Counted from the stretch's first letter, positions 59,492 through 63,751 are shown. The stretch is 64,000 nucleotides of DNA from Thermococcus sp. 4557 (GCF_000221185.1 NC_015865.1:496001-560000), one strand, 5' to 3'. The notes: generated from the sequence alone by a model not told the origin. Numbers and translations: made by a program.

Positions 59492-59689
59492 GTAAACAGT
59501 ATACTCGACAGAACGTAAAAAGATTTCGGCACAATGCTTTATCAATAGCAACAATATTGGGGTGTTGATGATGGGGTAGCATTGGCCACATGACAAAGGA
59601 CTGACCAACCTATCCACAAGGATAATGCAAACGCCACTGCAATCATGGGTTGATTTTTAAGCTCCTTCCCCATCTTTTCTTGATGCCCC

Positions 59690-60151
59690 ATGAAGGTGCT
59701 GTGGGAGAGGGAGATTCCGGCGGATGAGATAGTCGTCTCGCCCAGACCGGTCTGGAAGTGCCGCTCCTGTCCGATGTACGGCAGGAGGCCGAGCTGTCCG
59801 CCCCACGCCCCGGACTGGAGGGAAGCGAGGGAGTGGGTGCGGCACTTCAGGAGGGCCCTAATAGTGAAGTTCGAGATAAACATGGAGCGCTTTGAGGAGG
59901 AAAAGAGGGAGGCCCTGCTGTACCTCCTGGCGAGGGAGGAAGAGTTCTTCAAGAGGGGAAAGATGTACGCAATGGCGCTGTTTCCCGGTTCCTGCAACCT
60001 CTGCGACGACTGCCCATTCGAGAGGGGCGAGCCGTGCAGGATGCCGACCAAGGTCAGACCGAGCATAGACGCTGTGGGCATCGAGATTGGAAAACTCGTG
60101 GAAATCAACTTCTCCGAAAGCGTTTTGTACGGGATGGTGCTAATTGAATAA
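59690..60151 (+). CDS. DUF2284 cysteine-rich metal-binding protein
   Basis: A 153-residue cytoplasmic protein with two cysteine clusters: CRSCPMYGRRPSCPPHAPD (Cys at residues about 24, 27, 36) and GSCNLCDDCPFERGEPCRMP near residue 105-122, as in the DUF2284 predicted metal-binding family, probably an Fe-S protein. It seems to begin as a leaderless gene (TATA tract gatttttaag, about 59652-59661, no ribosome-binding site). It is the first gene of a tight four-gene run leading to the CARF-like and PIN-like genes. Confidence 0.84.
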   Translation: MKVLWEREIPADEIVVSPRPVWKCRSCPMYGRRPSCPPHAPDWREAREWVRHFRRALIVKFEINMERFEEEKREALLYLLAREEEFFKRGKMYAMALFPGSCNLCDDCPFERGEPCRMPTKVRPSIDAVGIEIGKLVEINFSESVLYGMVLIE

Positions 60152-60163
60152 CGGTGCGAACGG

Positions 60164-60619
60164 ATGAAGGAAAACGTCTCCCCCGCCGGGACGAAGTGGG
60201 GAATCTCACTCATCATGACGCTCGTATACGCCTTCGGAGCCGCGTGGTTCTACTACCTACCGGCAAAGGGTGAACCTAATCTTGAGGTAGAGTTCTGGCA
60301 ACTGCTGCTCCACTTCACCGTCCTGAGCTTCCTCTTCTGGATAGTCCTGGTTCCGGAGAGGACATCGAGCAAATCCTCCAACGTTCTTATGTTCACGGTT
60401 CTAACGGTTCCCGTCGGAGTGTTCGCCGCACTCCTCTTTCTCTTCGCTGCGGGGGGAGTTGGAGTTCACGAAACCTACGGCCTCGGGTACATCGTAATGG
60501 CGCTGGTGCCATTCCTGATCGCCCACAAGACCGTTAAGGGACGGATTTCAGCGGTTCCATTCGTTTTGGCGCTGGTTTATGGAGTCATAGCGTACGTCTG
60601 GGGGAGTAGATTATGGTGA
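60164..60619 (+). CDS. Small membrane protein in the CARF/PIN gene run
   Basis: A 151-residue protein with four or five hydrophobic spans (SLIMTLVYAFGAAWFYYLPA, LLLHFTVLSFLFWIVLVP, VLMFTVLTVPVGVFAALLFLFAAGG, YGLGYIVMALVPFLIAH, FVLALVYGVIAYVWG). No family recognised. It starts 13 bp after the DUF2284 gene and its last 7 bases overlap the start of the CARF-like gene, so co-translation with the latter is likely. Membrane effectors occur in some signalling systems of this kind; here the link is positional only. Confidence 0.68.
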   Translation: MKENVSPAGTKWGISLIMTLVYAFGAAWFYYLPAKGEPNLEVEFWQLLLHFTVLSFLFWIVLVPERTSSKSSNVLMFTVLTVPVGVFAALLFLFAAGGVGVHETYGLGYIVMALVPFLIAHKTVKGRISAVPFVLALVYGVIAYVWGSRLW

Positions 60620-61095
60620 AGGTTGCGTACATAACCCTTCTCGGCCGCTCGCCGTGGGCGGTCGTTAACACCTACTACAAGCTCCTCACACGGGGAGAAA
60701 AGGCCGAGAGGATATACGTATTCACGGAGGAGCGCTACCGCCACAACCTGCCCAAGGTCGTCGAGGCGATTAGAGTAATTTCAGAGGCGTACAACCTCAA
60801 CCCGAGGATAGAAACAGAAGTCGTTCCGGACTACGGCTTCTTCGTCGCCGACAGAAAGTTCAGGGAGCTGTTCTCCAAGCTGGAGCGCGAGGGCTACAGG
60901 ATGGGTCTGGACATAACCTCAGGAAGGAAGGCCCTCGTTGCCGCCGCGATAGTTCAGATAAGGCAGTTCCCCGTGGCGTTCATCGTTTACATGGGGCTCC
61001 TCGACCTGGACTTCCCGGACAGGCCCTACATGATGATTCCAACCCACATGCAGCCGATAAAGAACTTCCTGGGTGATGAGAGTGAGGGAGACTAG
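60613..61095 (+). CDS. Stand-alone CARF-like nucleotide-sensing protein
   Basis: A 160-residue Rossmann-like protein. It begins VKVAYITLLGRSPWAVVNTYYKLL, the beta1-alpha1 element with LGxSP seen in CARF domains, continues AERIYVFTEE as beta2, and has MGLDITSGRKALVAAAIVQIR (residues 98-117), the counterpart of the D-(I/L)-T-G-G-x-K-x-M motif that binds cyclic oligoadenylate in CARF proteins. No effector domain is fused. It overlaps the downstream PIN-like gene by 20 bp and the upstream membrane-protein gene by 7 bp. It could sense cA4/cA6 for the PIN protein or act as a ring nuclease; both are inferences. Confidence 0.7.
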   Translation: MVKVAYITLLGRSPWAVVNTYYKLLTRGEKAERIYVFTEERYRHNLPKVVEAIRVISEAYNLNPRIETEVVPDYGFFVADRKFRELFSKLEREGYRMGLDITSGRKALVAAAIVQIRQFPVAFIVYMGLLDLDFPDRPYMMIPTHMQPIKNFLGDESEGD

Positions 61096-62077
61096 CGAGG
61101 TTATAGAGAAACCGGAGCTCCAGATACTCCTTAACGTTCTGGGGGACATCAGGGTGAGCTATCCGCTCTACGGACTGCCCCTGCTAAGGGCAAAGCCTGT
61201 GGAAACCGGCTACCGCGTTGAGCTCACGGTGAAGAGGCGGGAGTTCAACGAGCACGTTCCGGAGTACCTCTCCCATGAACTTCCCACCTGGACGGACTTC
61301 TACGAGTGCTTCATCTCCGCGGGCATCGTGAGGTACGCGAACATCGATGAGTTCGTCCAGAACCTGGAGCTCTACGAGAGGCTCAAGAAGGGCGTGGCCT
61401 TCGCTCCGGACACCAACCTCTTCTACCACCGCTTCATCTCGGGCTTCAAGCCCCTCGACAGGTACCAGATAGTCGTGGCGGAGGGCGTGAAGAAGGAGAT
61501 AGAGAACGCCATGAACTACAAGTACCGGCACAGGGAGCTGGAGGAAATCAGGCGCGAGGTTAGAAACGGAAGCCTCCTCCGGGAGTTCAGCAACAGGCGG
61601 ACGAAGAGGAGCAGAAAAGCCGCGTACATAGCCCTCAAGGAGTTCGAAAGGCTGAAGGACAGGATAATCATAGCCGAGAGCGTCAAAGAACCGGCCCACA
61701 ACAACGACGAGATAATAGTCAAGTCCCTCAAGCACTACGACAACATGACGCCAACTCTGCTCGTCTTCCTCACGGCGGACATAGCGATAACTGACGTGGC
61801 AGAGATGGAGGGGCTGGAGTACTTCCTCTTCAAGTACCCGCGCCAGGAGATTGGTCGGCACGACGTTACGGCCTATCAGCTCAGGACGCTCCTATTCAAC
61901 CTCGCGGCGGTTTTCGGCGTCATAGAGGTGAACGGAATAACGATTTTCGGCGAGTTCGGAGGCAAGAGCGGGCTGAACGAGCTGAAGCTGGTCTTTCCAA
62001 CCGAGAACAGGGGCTACCACGAGTTCGAGTTCCACCTGAAGCTCAGCAGGAAGCTGATGGAAATAATGGGGGGATAA
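61076..62077 (+). CDS. PIN-domain nuclease-like protein coupled to the CARF-like gene
   Basis: A 333-residue protein. Residues about 108-245 form a PIN-type nuclease core: Asp112 in FAPDTNLFYHRF, Glu136/Glu141 in VVAEGVKKEIENA, Asp211 in NNDEIIVKSL and Asp235 in FLTADIAI, giving the expected acidic Mg2+ site. The N-terminal 100 residues and C-terminal 80 residues are unrecognised alpha/beta extensions, perhaps binding the CARF partner or RNA. The start lies inside the CARF-like gene; ATG 61076 is used, though GTG 61082 has the better GGTGA spacing. Stop is 1 bp from a convergent gene. Confidence 0.76.
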   Translation: MRVRETSEVIEKPELQILLNVLGDIRVSYPLYGLPLLRAKPVETGYRVELTVKRREFNEHVPEYLSHELPTWTDFYECFISAGIVRYANIDEFVQNLELYERLKKGVAFAPDTNLFYHRFISGFKPLDRYQIVVAEGVKKEIENAMNYKYRHRELEEIRREVRNGSLLREFSNRRTKRSRKAAYIALKEFERLKDRIIIAESVKEPAHNNDEIIVKSLKHYDNMTPTLLVFLTADIAITDVAEMEGLEYFLFKYPRQEIGRHDVTAYQLRTLLFNLAAVFGVIEVNGITIFGEFGGKSGLNELKLVFPTENRGYHEFEFHLKLSRKLMEIMGG

Positions 62078-62425: not shown

Positions 62426-63751
62426 TTACTGAAGCATGCCCTCCAGCTTCTCCACGAACTCCATGCTCCTCCGGAGGTCCGCGAAGTACTCCTTCGCCCT
62501 CTCGATGTGCTCCTTCTCCACCCTTCCGCCCCTTGCCAGGACGCTGGCCGGAGCCAGGAGCTGCACCGCGTAGCGCAGGCTGGTCTTCTCGCCGAGCTCC
62601 GCGAGGTACTCTATCGCCTCCTCGCTCACCTCAATCCTCTCCTCCCTCGCGCGAATCTTGACTATCTCTCTGATTTCCTCCTTCCTGTAGGGCTCGGTGT
62701 TGATTATGAGCAGCCTGTCGAGCATGTCGATGGGTATCCCGTGCGGGGCTTCGAGGTCGGTGCCCCTTATCTTCGTCCTTCCGCGGTTCGTCGCGAGGAT
62801 GAGAATCGGCGCCAGCTCGCTCTCCATCGCCCTCGCGAGGAAGGAGAACGCCTCGATGTCGAGCATGTGGACCTCGTCTATGAAGAGAACCCCCGGCACG
62901 AGGCTGGCCTTCCCTTCCTCGATCCACTTCTTGACGGTCTCATCAACGCGCCCCCTTATCTCGTCGCTTATCTCCGCCCCAGTGCTGAAGAGCAGGCCGA
63001 AGATGTTGCCCCTTGCATTGGCAACGTCGAGGTCGTGGAGAGTGACGGTGTAGGTGAACTCCTTGATCTTGAGAACCGGTCCGCTCGGTAGGTTCACCTT
63101 GCGCTTGAAGAACAGCCCCTCTTCCTCCTTCGTTGTGCCTATCTTCGAAATCCTGCCGGTCTCGGCGTCAATCTGTATGACGTCGCCCTCCTCAACGCCC
63201 ATCTCCATGAGCTGATAGGCTATCTCCCTGCCGGCCCTGATGGTCTTCTGGTCATCCTTGGTGCGGAGGGTTATGACGACGCTCTCGGGGATCTCGACGT
63301 AGGGGTTGAACGGATGCCTGGTGCGGTTTATGCTTATCTCCCTGACCTCGCCCTCGTAGACCTTCCTCTCCTCGCTTATCCTAACGCCTATCGCCCTCCT
63401 GAGGGCCTCCTTCAGGAACTCGGTCTTCTTGACCTCGGCGGAATAAATCTCACTGCCCGCTATCTGGACGAAGGGCACGTCCTCACCGAGTTCCCTCGCT
63501 ATGCCCATAGCTATGGCCGTTTTACCGCTTCCCGTCGGGCCGACGAGAAGGATTCCCTTTCCGGCGAGCTTGCCGCGCTTGATGAGTTCAACCGCTATTC
63601 CCGCCGCTTCCCTAGCCTTAACCTGTCCGACCATTCCGTCGGCCATGAACTTCGCCTTTCCATTCTCGTCGAGACCAAGGCCCTTGATGTGAGAGTGGCT
63701 TCCAATCCTCTCGAAGCTCCTCGGTGCGGTCACTTCCTCTATAACTGGCAT
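62426..63751 (-). CDS. TIP49/RuvB-like AAA+ ATPase (Pontin/Reptin homologue)
   Basis: A 441-residue AAA+ ATPase of the TIP49 family: SHSHIKGLGLDENGKAKF start, Walker A GPTGSGKT (71-78), the large domain II insertion with an OB-like fold (residues about 125-240, ERKVYEGEVREISI...), Walker B LFIDEVHMLDIEAFSFL near 295 and ATNRGRTKIRGTD sensor region. Eukaryotic RuvBL1/2 act in chromatin remodelling and RNP assembly, including C/D snoRNP; archaeal function is unknown. The C/D sRNAs in this window make an RNP role an attractive but untested idea. TATA tract (aaatttttaaatc) upstream of ATG. Confidence 0.93.
   Translation of the reverse strand: MPVIEEVTAPRSFERIGSHSHIKGLGLDENGKAKFMADGMVGQVKAREAAGIAVELIKRGKLAGKGILLVGPTGSGKTAIAMGIARELGEDVPFVQIAGSEIYSAEVKKTEFLKEALRRAIGVRISEERKVYEGEVREISINRTRHPFNPYVEIPESVVITLRTKDDQKTIRAGREIAYQLMEMGVEEGDVIQIDAETGRISKIGTTKEEEGLFFKRKVNLPSGPVLKIKEFTYTVTLHDLDVANARGNIFGLLFSTGAEISDEIRGRVDETVKKWIEEGKASLVPGVLFIDEVHMLDIEAFSFLARAMESELAPILILATNRGRTKIRGTDLEAPHGIPIDMLDRLLIINTEPYRKEEIREIVKIRAREERIEVSEEAIEYLAELGEKTSLRYAVQLLAPASVLARGGRVEKEHIERAKEYFADLRRSMEFVEKLEGMLQ

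Follow-up and report, generated by a model that had tools for sequence, protein, structure and literature searches.

A stand-alone CARF protein and a PIN-domain protein are encoded by two overlapping genes of Thermococcus sp. 4557, and we consider it slightly better than an even chance that they form a ligand-gated RNase split over two proteins, with a signal that is most likely not made by Cas10. The two folds (by prediction and sequence), the conservation of the operon and of its residues, and the independence from cas10 were established in this analysis. The DNA studied was a stretch of 64,000 nucleotides at genome positions 496001-560000, called the window here, and its relevant features are as follows, in window positions.

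59649..59661, + strand: TTGATTTTTAAG element, probably a TATA-type promoter of the archaeal kind, some 30 bp 5' of the DUF2284 start
59690..60151, + strand: DUF2284 gene, 153 aa, a predicted cysteine-rich metal-binding protein (Pfam PF10050, E 1.9e-33)
60164..60619, + strand: membrane-protein gene, about 150 aa (151 here), a lineage-specific insertion as judged from gap sizes across 71 loci
60613..61095, + strand: stand-alone CARF protein of the CARF_m1 type, 160 aa (PADLOC PDLC01971, E 1.4e-78)
60640..60657, + strand: CARF motif I, LGRSPW, residues 10-15, with the signature G-R-[S/T]-x-W
60910..60930, + strand: CARF motif II, DITSGRK, residues 100-106; T102, G104 and K106 invariant, R105 nearly so
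61073..62077, + strand: PIN-domain protein, 334 aa, PIN_4 above the gathering score
61409..61417, + strand: PIN motif D113-T114-N115, invariant in 57 Thermococcaceae proteins and four Bathy/Asgard relatives
61496..61504, + strand: PIN acidic residues E142 and E144; E142 universal
61706..61708, + strand: PIN acidic residue D212, invariant, fused proteins included
61778..61795, + strand: PIN acidic residues D236 and D241, from the alignment

A four-gene run had been read here from the sequence alone, and all four ORFs were found on the + strand at 59690-62077 with both of the reported overlaps. The membrane-protein gene overlaps the CARF gene by 7 bp. The CARF gene overlaps the PIN gene by 23 bp when the latter is taken from its GTG start and by 20 bp, the figure first reported, when it is taken from the ATG one codon later. 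The close placement of DUF2284 also stood, but the spacing to the membrane-protein gene was measured as 12 bp and not the 13 bp that had been given. Both motifs noticed in the CARF-like product, LGRSP and DITSGRK, are present. When 18 genomes were aligned, the TTGATTTTTAAG element stood out in most as the sole well-conserved block 5' of DUF2284, the sequence farther upstream having diverged; conserved as it is in close relatives, the element looks like the operon promoter.

Conservation was examined in a Thermococcaceae sample of 94 genomes from six genera, with a high-quality subset of 74, and the CARF and PIN genes were found in most genomes of five of the six genera. The locus comparison covered 72 loci; one of them runs off the end of its contig, and the three genes were readable in the other 71. 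The order DUF2284-CARF-PIN is kept in every one of these 71, across five genera, so the arrangement is far beyond chance. The CARF and PIN genes overlap by 1-41 bp across 72 measured pairs, the exceptions being two with a 2-bp gap. The prediction that the two genes are kept together was thus confirmed by their constant order, and the pairing recurs beyond Thermococcaceae. The flanks are scrambled, and no other family was common to more than half of 14 clustered loci. Downstream of the PIN gene, on the opposite strand, lies a gene for a TIP49/RuvB-like ATPase (window 62426-63751, - strand; Pfam E 2.8e-142), and the cluster to which it belongs was seen again at 7 of the 14 loci checked.

The split pair is missing from genus g3 (nine genomes; by inference Pyrococcus) and from genome G034, and DUF2284 is retained there. 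In genome G076 the PIN gene is split by an insertion bearing transposase-like ORFs (locus L075, G076:C4, 6094-7126), with CARF and DUF2284 intact beside it and Cas10 present in the genome. These absences, together with the insertion, indicate that the pair is dispensable. DUF2284, with invariant cysteines at C24, C27, C36, C102, C105, C108 and C116, is the constant third gene of the Thermococcaceae operon, a constancy that the sequence-only reading had not recognised, but since it survives without the pair in g3 and G034, its link to the pair is looser. The gap between DUF2284 and CARF is shorter than 20 bp in 44 of the 71 loci, 30-167 bp in six and greater than 400 bp, where it holds the membrane gene, in 21. 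In a few loci the gene is reduced to a short gap, and elsewhere it is absent; at one short-gap locus (G070), the N-terminal 27 residues of the membrane protein could still be matched. Because the gene is found in only 21 of 71 loci, the membrane protein was rejected as a component of the system, contrary to the possibility raised at the outset.

The CARF protein matches PDLC01971 (minor clade m1) over residues 4-157, covering model positions 2-155 of 156, and a Pfam search with it gave no match. Its AlphaFold2 model, built from ortholog alignments, has a mean pLDDT of 86.3 and shows a Rossmann-like CARF fold with LGRSPW after strand 3-10 and GRK after strand 95-101. When this model was searched with Foldseek, 58 PDB chains were found at E <= 0.001, with CARF proteins nearly throughout among the matches listed. 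These matches, with E down to 9.8e-7, included Csm6, Cam1, Sso2081/Sis0455 and SiRe_0806, which supports the CARF assignment made from sequence alone. TAL-effector matches to the CARF profile (E 1e-11) were ignored, as they are sums of many sub-threshold repeat matches.

Motif II of the CARF protein corresponds to G104-R105-K106 of Sso2081, a protein whose GTS motif matters in cleaving the ring and whose GRK matters in binding and in stabilising the intermediate (PMC10018336). GRK is common to the split CARFs and the cas10-linked fused proteins, but motif I is GR[S/T]xW in the former and GTS in the latter. In the CARF tree, the GR[S/T]xW proteins group as a single clade (one change, 100/100 support) spanning Thermococcaceae, Asgard archaea and Bathyarchaeia, and G11, R12 and W15 are invariant in the split proteins of the clade from all three. 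The frame of cyclic oligoadenylate signalling in which the gene was first placed is the weak part of that reading, since the pocket signature is unlike that of the cas10-linked relatives. With motif II (GRK) and the overall shape of the pocket retained, the CARF protein may still bind a cyclic oligoadenylate. The Crn1 ring nuclease Sso2081/Sis0455 has the CARF fold and GRK motif II in common with the split CARF, and Sso2081 is its nearest PDB match by sequence (E 1.5e-4). The split CARF differs from Crn1 in its replaced GTS (motif II agrees, whereas motif I has GR[S/T]), in having no predicted C-terminal helical insert, and in its PIN-gene partner, and it scored 17.7 bits with the Crn1 model (NCBIfam NF040581), for which the cut-off is 125.

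In the PIN protein, the PIN core (about 108-253) lies between an N-terminal connector (residues 1-66) and a C-terminal region. Its match to PIN_4 (PF13638; E 8.7e-5, 23.3 bits against a gathering score of 21.9) places it in the PIN-domain nuclease family, and the fused model PDLC01973 aligns through its PIN half (positions 220-442 of 465) to residues 66-299 with E 4e-16. The AlphaFold2 model from ortholog alignments has a mean pLDDT of 91.9. The first five Foldseek matches were all chains of SiRe_0806, apo or cA4-bound (E about 1e-7 to 1e-6, best 1.4e-7; TM about 0.5). The next match was an isolated Thermus domain of unknown function. D113, E142, D212, D236 and D241 are all invariant in Thermococcaceae. 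D236 is also invariant in all aligned split and fused proteins, and D241 in most close split relatives. The intact acidic site that had been described is therefore real and conserved in homologues.

Fused CARF-PIN proteins (PDLC01973; SiRe_0806, PDB 9jxw/9jxx with cA4) have the same domain order as the split pair, which is collinear with them at at least 15 loci, and the PIN residues D113, E142, D212 and D236 are common to both forms. Both split halves match SiRe_0806 by fold and in order, so both map onto one known fused effector; SiRe_0806 was not found by sequence search from the split proteins, and thus the relation to it rests on fold. With the CARF fold, the conserved PIN site, the genes kept together and the collinearity with a fused effector, the proposal of a split sensor-effector is well founded. 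The fused form is a single polypeptide, whereas, in each of the Thermococcaceae loci read, the split pair is two overlapping genes whose stop and start are separate. The two forms also fall into separate clades in both the PIN and the CARF trees; within one family, the split form has a lineage of its own, distinct from that of the fused proteins linked to cas10. True fusions within the GR[S/T]xW CARF clade were found in two Asgard genomes (L172 and L180). Another candidate for a natural fusion, L199 (496 aa), was dropped, since in its DNA a small indel puts the C-terminal end of CARF out of frame, perhaps as a MAG error; it was not used as evidence.

The relation of the pair to Cas10 was examined next to that of the fused form. 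There is no cas1 in the window (the genome's copies are at 699524 and 130322), and searches of the whole genome with the PF22335 palm and TIGR02578 gave no Cas10, mCpol being likewise absent, which agrees with the earlier statement that no cas gene is close by in the window. Across the 94 genomes, the Cas10 palm PF22335 was found in 36 and TIGR02578 added one fragment over the cut-off (G010), counts made with models that could miss very divergent Cas10. TIGR02578 also gave matches in nearly every genome (model 4-77, frames of about 210 aa), which were rejected on account of their length, insufficient for Cas10, and of scores under the family cut-off. The Cas10 matches in G025 and G062 proved on examination to belong to mCpol (domains at G025:C1:888432-888779 and G062:C109:38165-38527; frames of 137-147 aa).

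The pair is present in 65 of the 74 high-quality genomes. In 40 of these 65, this genome included, there is no Cas10/mCpol palm, and 10 of the 40 also have no Cas1; the pair and the PF22335 palm occur together in the other 25, two of which are mCpol. Co-occurrence of the pair with cas10 across Thermococcaceae, a prospect raised by the sequence-only reading, was not seen: there was no positive association in the 74 high-quality genomes (Fisher p = 0.15, negative direction), in contrast to the fused CARF-PIN form, the presence of which is tied to Cas10 (p = 4e-8), both p-values being descriptive since the genomes share ancestry and are not independent samples. Of 18 loci with the fused form, 17 have cas10 no farther away than about 16 kb, whereas only 1 of 29 split pairs in palm-bearing genomes is within 20 kb of a Cas10-type palm. 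By the usual test of cas10 co-occurrence and linkage, the pair is not a CRISPR accessory. Since most of its hosts have no Cas10, it probably answers to another signal.

The pair is also well preserved where cas10 is missing. No PIN-site residue examined varies among the 46-47 cas10-minus loci, and the CARF pocket is fixed except for S/T/F at 13, two G at 39 and one K at 105. The median dN/dS of PIN is 0.154 for cas10-minus pairs and 0.132 for cas10-plus pairs. For CARF the medians are 0.27 and 0.16 from pairs that are not phylogenetically independent, and the higher value in cas10-minus pairs would fit partial relaxation. No PIN relatives were found in a phage collection search or a viral-contig scan. 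With vertical conservation, no cas10 co-occurrence and no phage or viral-contig matches, the defence role first suggested for the genes was not borne out.

A possible sequence of events for a ligand-gated, two-protein RNase is the following. The CARF protein probably dimerises and forms a nucleotide pocket, and it would dock against the connector at the N terminus of PIN, like the CARF and PIN halves inside fused effectors. Ligand binding would then switch the PIN site, leading to RNA cleavage and to growth being slowed or stopped. The ligand is most likely an endogenous signal, RNA-derived or a nucleotide, that reports stress or infection, for instance an RNA end or fragment of the kind bound by the CARF domain of RtcR. 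DUF2284, presumably co-transcribed, may tune the system via metal or redox state. The CARF of RtcR, an RNA-repair regulator, has as its ligand tRNA halves with a terminal 2',3'-cyclic phosphate and is a precedent for a CARF ligand not made by Cas10 (PMC7790460); RtcR is bacterial, with its CARF fused to AAA+ and DNA-binding domains.

Outside Thermococcaceae, full-length PIN relatives with an overlapping upstream CARF gene were found in Lokiarchaeota, Sigynarchaeota and the phylum of one Bathyarchaeota genome. Cas10 is present in 3 of 12 non-Thermococcaceae genomes with close relatives; many of these are MAGs, so absence is weak evidence. The neighbours there include RNase-J-like MBL proteins, HFX_2341/DUF6293 CARF-winged-helix proteins and HAD proteins, of which the first two suggest an RNA theme that would favour the two-protein RNase with a ligand from a source other than Cas10. 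We also think it quite possible, at a little short of even confidence, that the GR[S/T]xW CARF clade is the receptor of a Cas10-free archaeal pathway in which a nucleotide or RNA-end signal switches on a two-subunit PIN RNase, and that Thermococcaceae would use this pathway, which would have relatives in both Asgard archaea and Bathyarchaeia, as a core stress or immune response.

Another possible explanation, although an unlikely one, is that the pair is a chromosomally fixed effector awaiting cA4 or another cyclic oligoadenylate from type III systems gained and lost through horizontal transfer or from an undetected cyclase. The CARF fold with its retained GRK, the binding of cA4 by the closest solved relatives and the 25 genomes that do hold both pair and palm would be expected of such an effector. 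The undecayed PIN site in the 40 genomes with no palm, 10 of them with no Cas1 either, would not, and neither would the Cas10-bearing genus g3 that has no pair, the lack of positive co-occurrence or a pocket signature unlike that of cas10-linked proteins.

In VapBC operons, a small upstream gene overlaps a PIN nuclease gene, as is seen for the CARF/PIN pair, and CARF always accompanies PIN. The CARF protein could thus be a standing inhibitor, with the PIN RNase freed when CARF is lost or occupied. This toxin-antitoxin-like arrangement appears improbable, since the antitoxin of VapBC binds DNA, whereas the upstream protein here is a CARF protein with no VapB-type DNA-binding domain by Pfam. Its conserved pocket residues would be needless for an inhibitor, the collinear fused forms suggest allostery and not a dissociable antitoxin, and the distribution is vertical and near-universal with few mobile occurrences.

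The near-core distribution and purifying selection, along with the RNase-J-like and HAD neighbours outside Thermococcaceae, might instead point to a constitutive housekeeping nuclease for RNA processing or decay, with CARF as a scaffold or RNA-end reader and not a switch. We regard this as more doubtful still, because the clean absence from g3 and G034 and the PIN insertion in G076 show the genes to be dispensable. That CARF is a ring nuclease merely co-transcribed with the PIN protein is very improbable, despite Sso2081 being its nearest relative by sequence in the PDB and a haloarchaeal homologue being annotated as a CRISPR-associated ring nuclease, given the Crn1 score far below the cut-off, the absent GTS motif I, the recurrence of PIN pairing in several archaeal lineages and in fusions, and the hosts being mostly without Cas10.

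CARF proteins are almost automatically taken as receptors of type III CRISPR cyclic oligoadenylates, and in a 2014 survey just 9 of 145 CARF-bearing genomes had neither cas1 nor cas10 (PMC4012209). Here, a CARF-RNase pair is near-core in a family where most sampled species have no Cas10, with a nearly fixed pocket and a distinct motif I. This suggests either that the CARF ligand is something besides the products of Cas10 or that the sensor is maintained in readiness for a usually absent signal, and the separate lineages of the fused cas10-linked and split forms bear on the origin of CARF signalling. Thermococcus is genetically tractable, so the ligand question is directly testable. The CARF clade is already catalogued in PADLOC and the fused relative SiRe_0806 has been solved. 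Our literature search, with the main CARF classification outside its range, found no paper on the split operon, its Cas10 independence or its motif, and a search on SiRe_0806 and CARF-PIN returned nothing relevant.

More distant overlapping CARF/PIN pairs were found on haloarchaeal plasmids (L224, 3851-5367; L225, 4022-5538), with a motif I that does not have the GR[S/T]xW signature. One of these CARFs is the protein annotated as a ring nuclease, and one pair is beside Csa3 and near a BREX-type ATP-binding protein. At three related loci (L207, L208 and L210), a gene for an HFX_2341 CARF-winged-helix protein separates the pair from a nearby DUF2284 gene. In Lokiarchaeota and Sigynarchaeota (L143, L144 and L145), the pair adjoins DNA-methylase-like genes, of the Eco57I type in L145, and the flanks also carry a gene for a RACo-type corrinoid activator.
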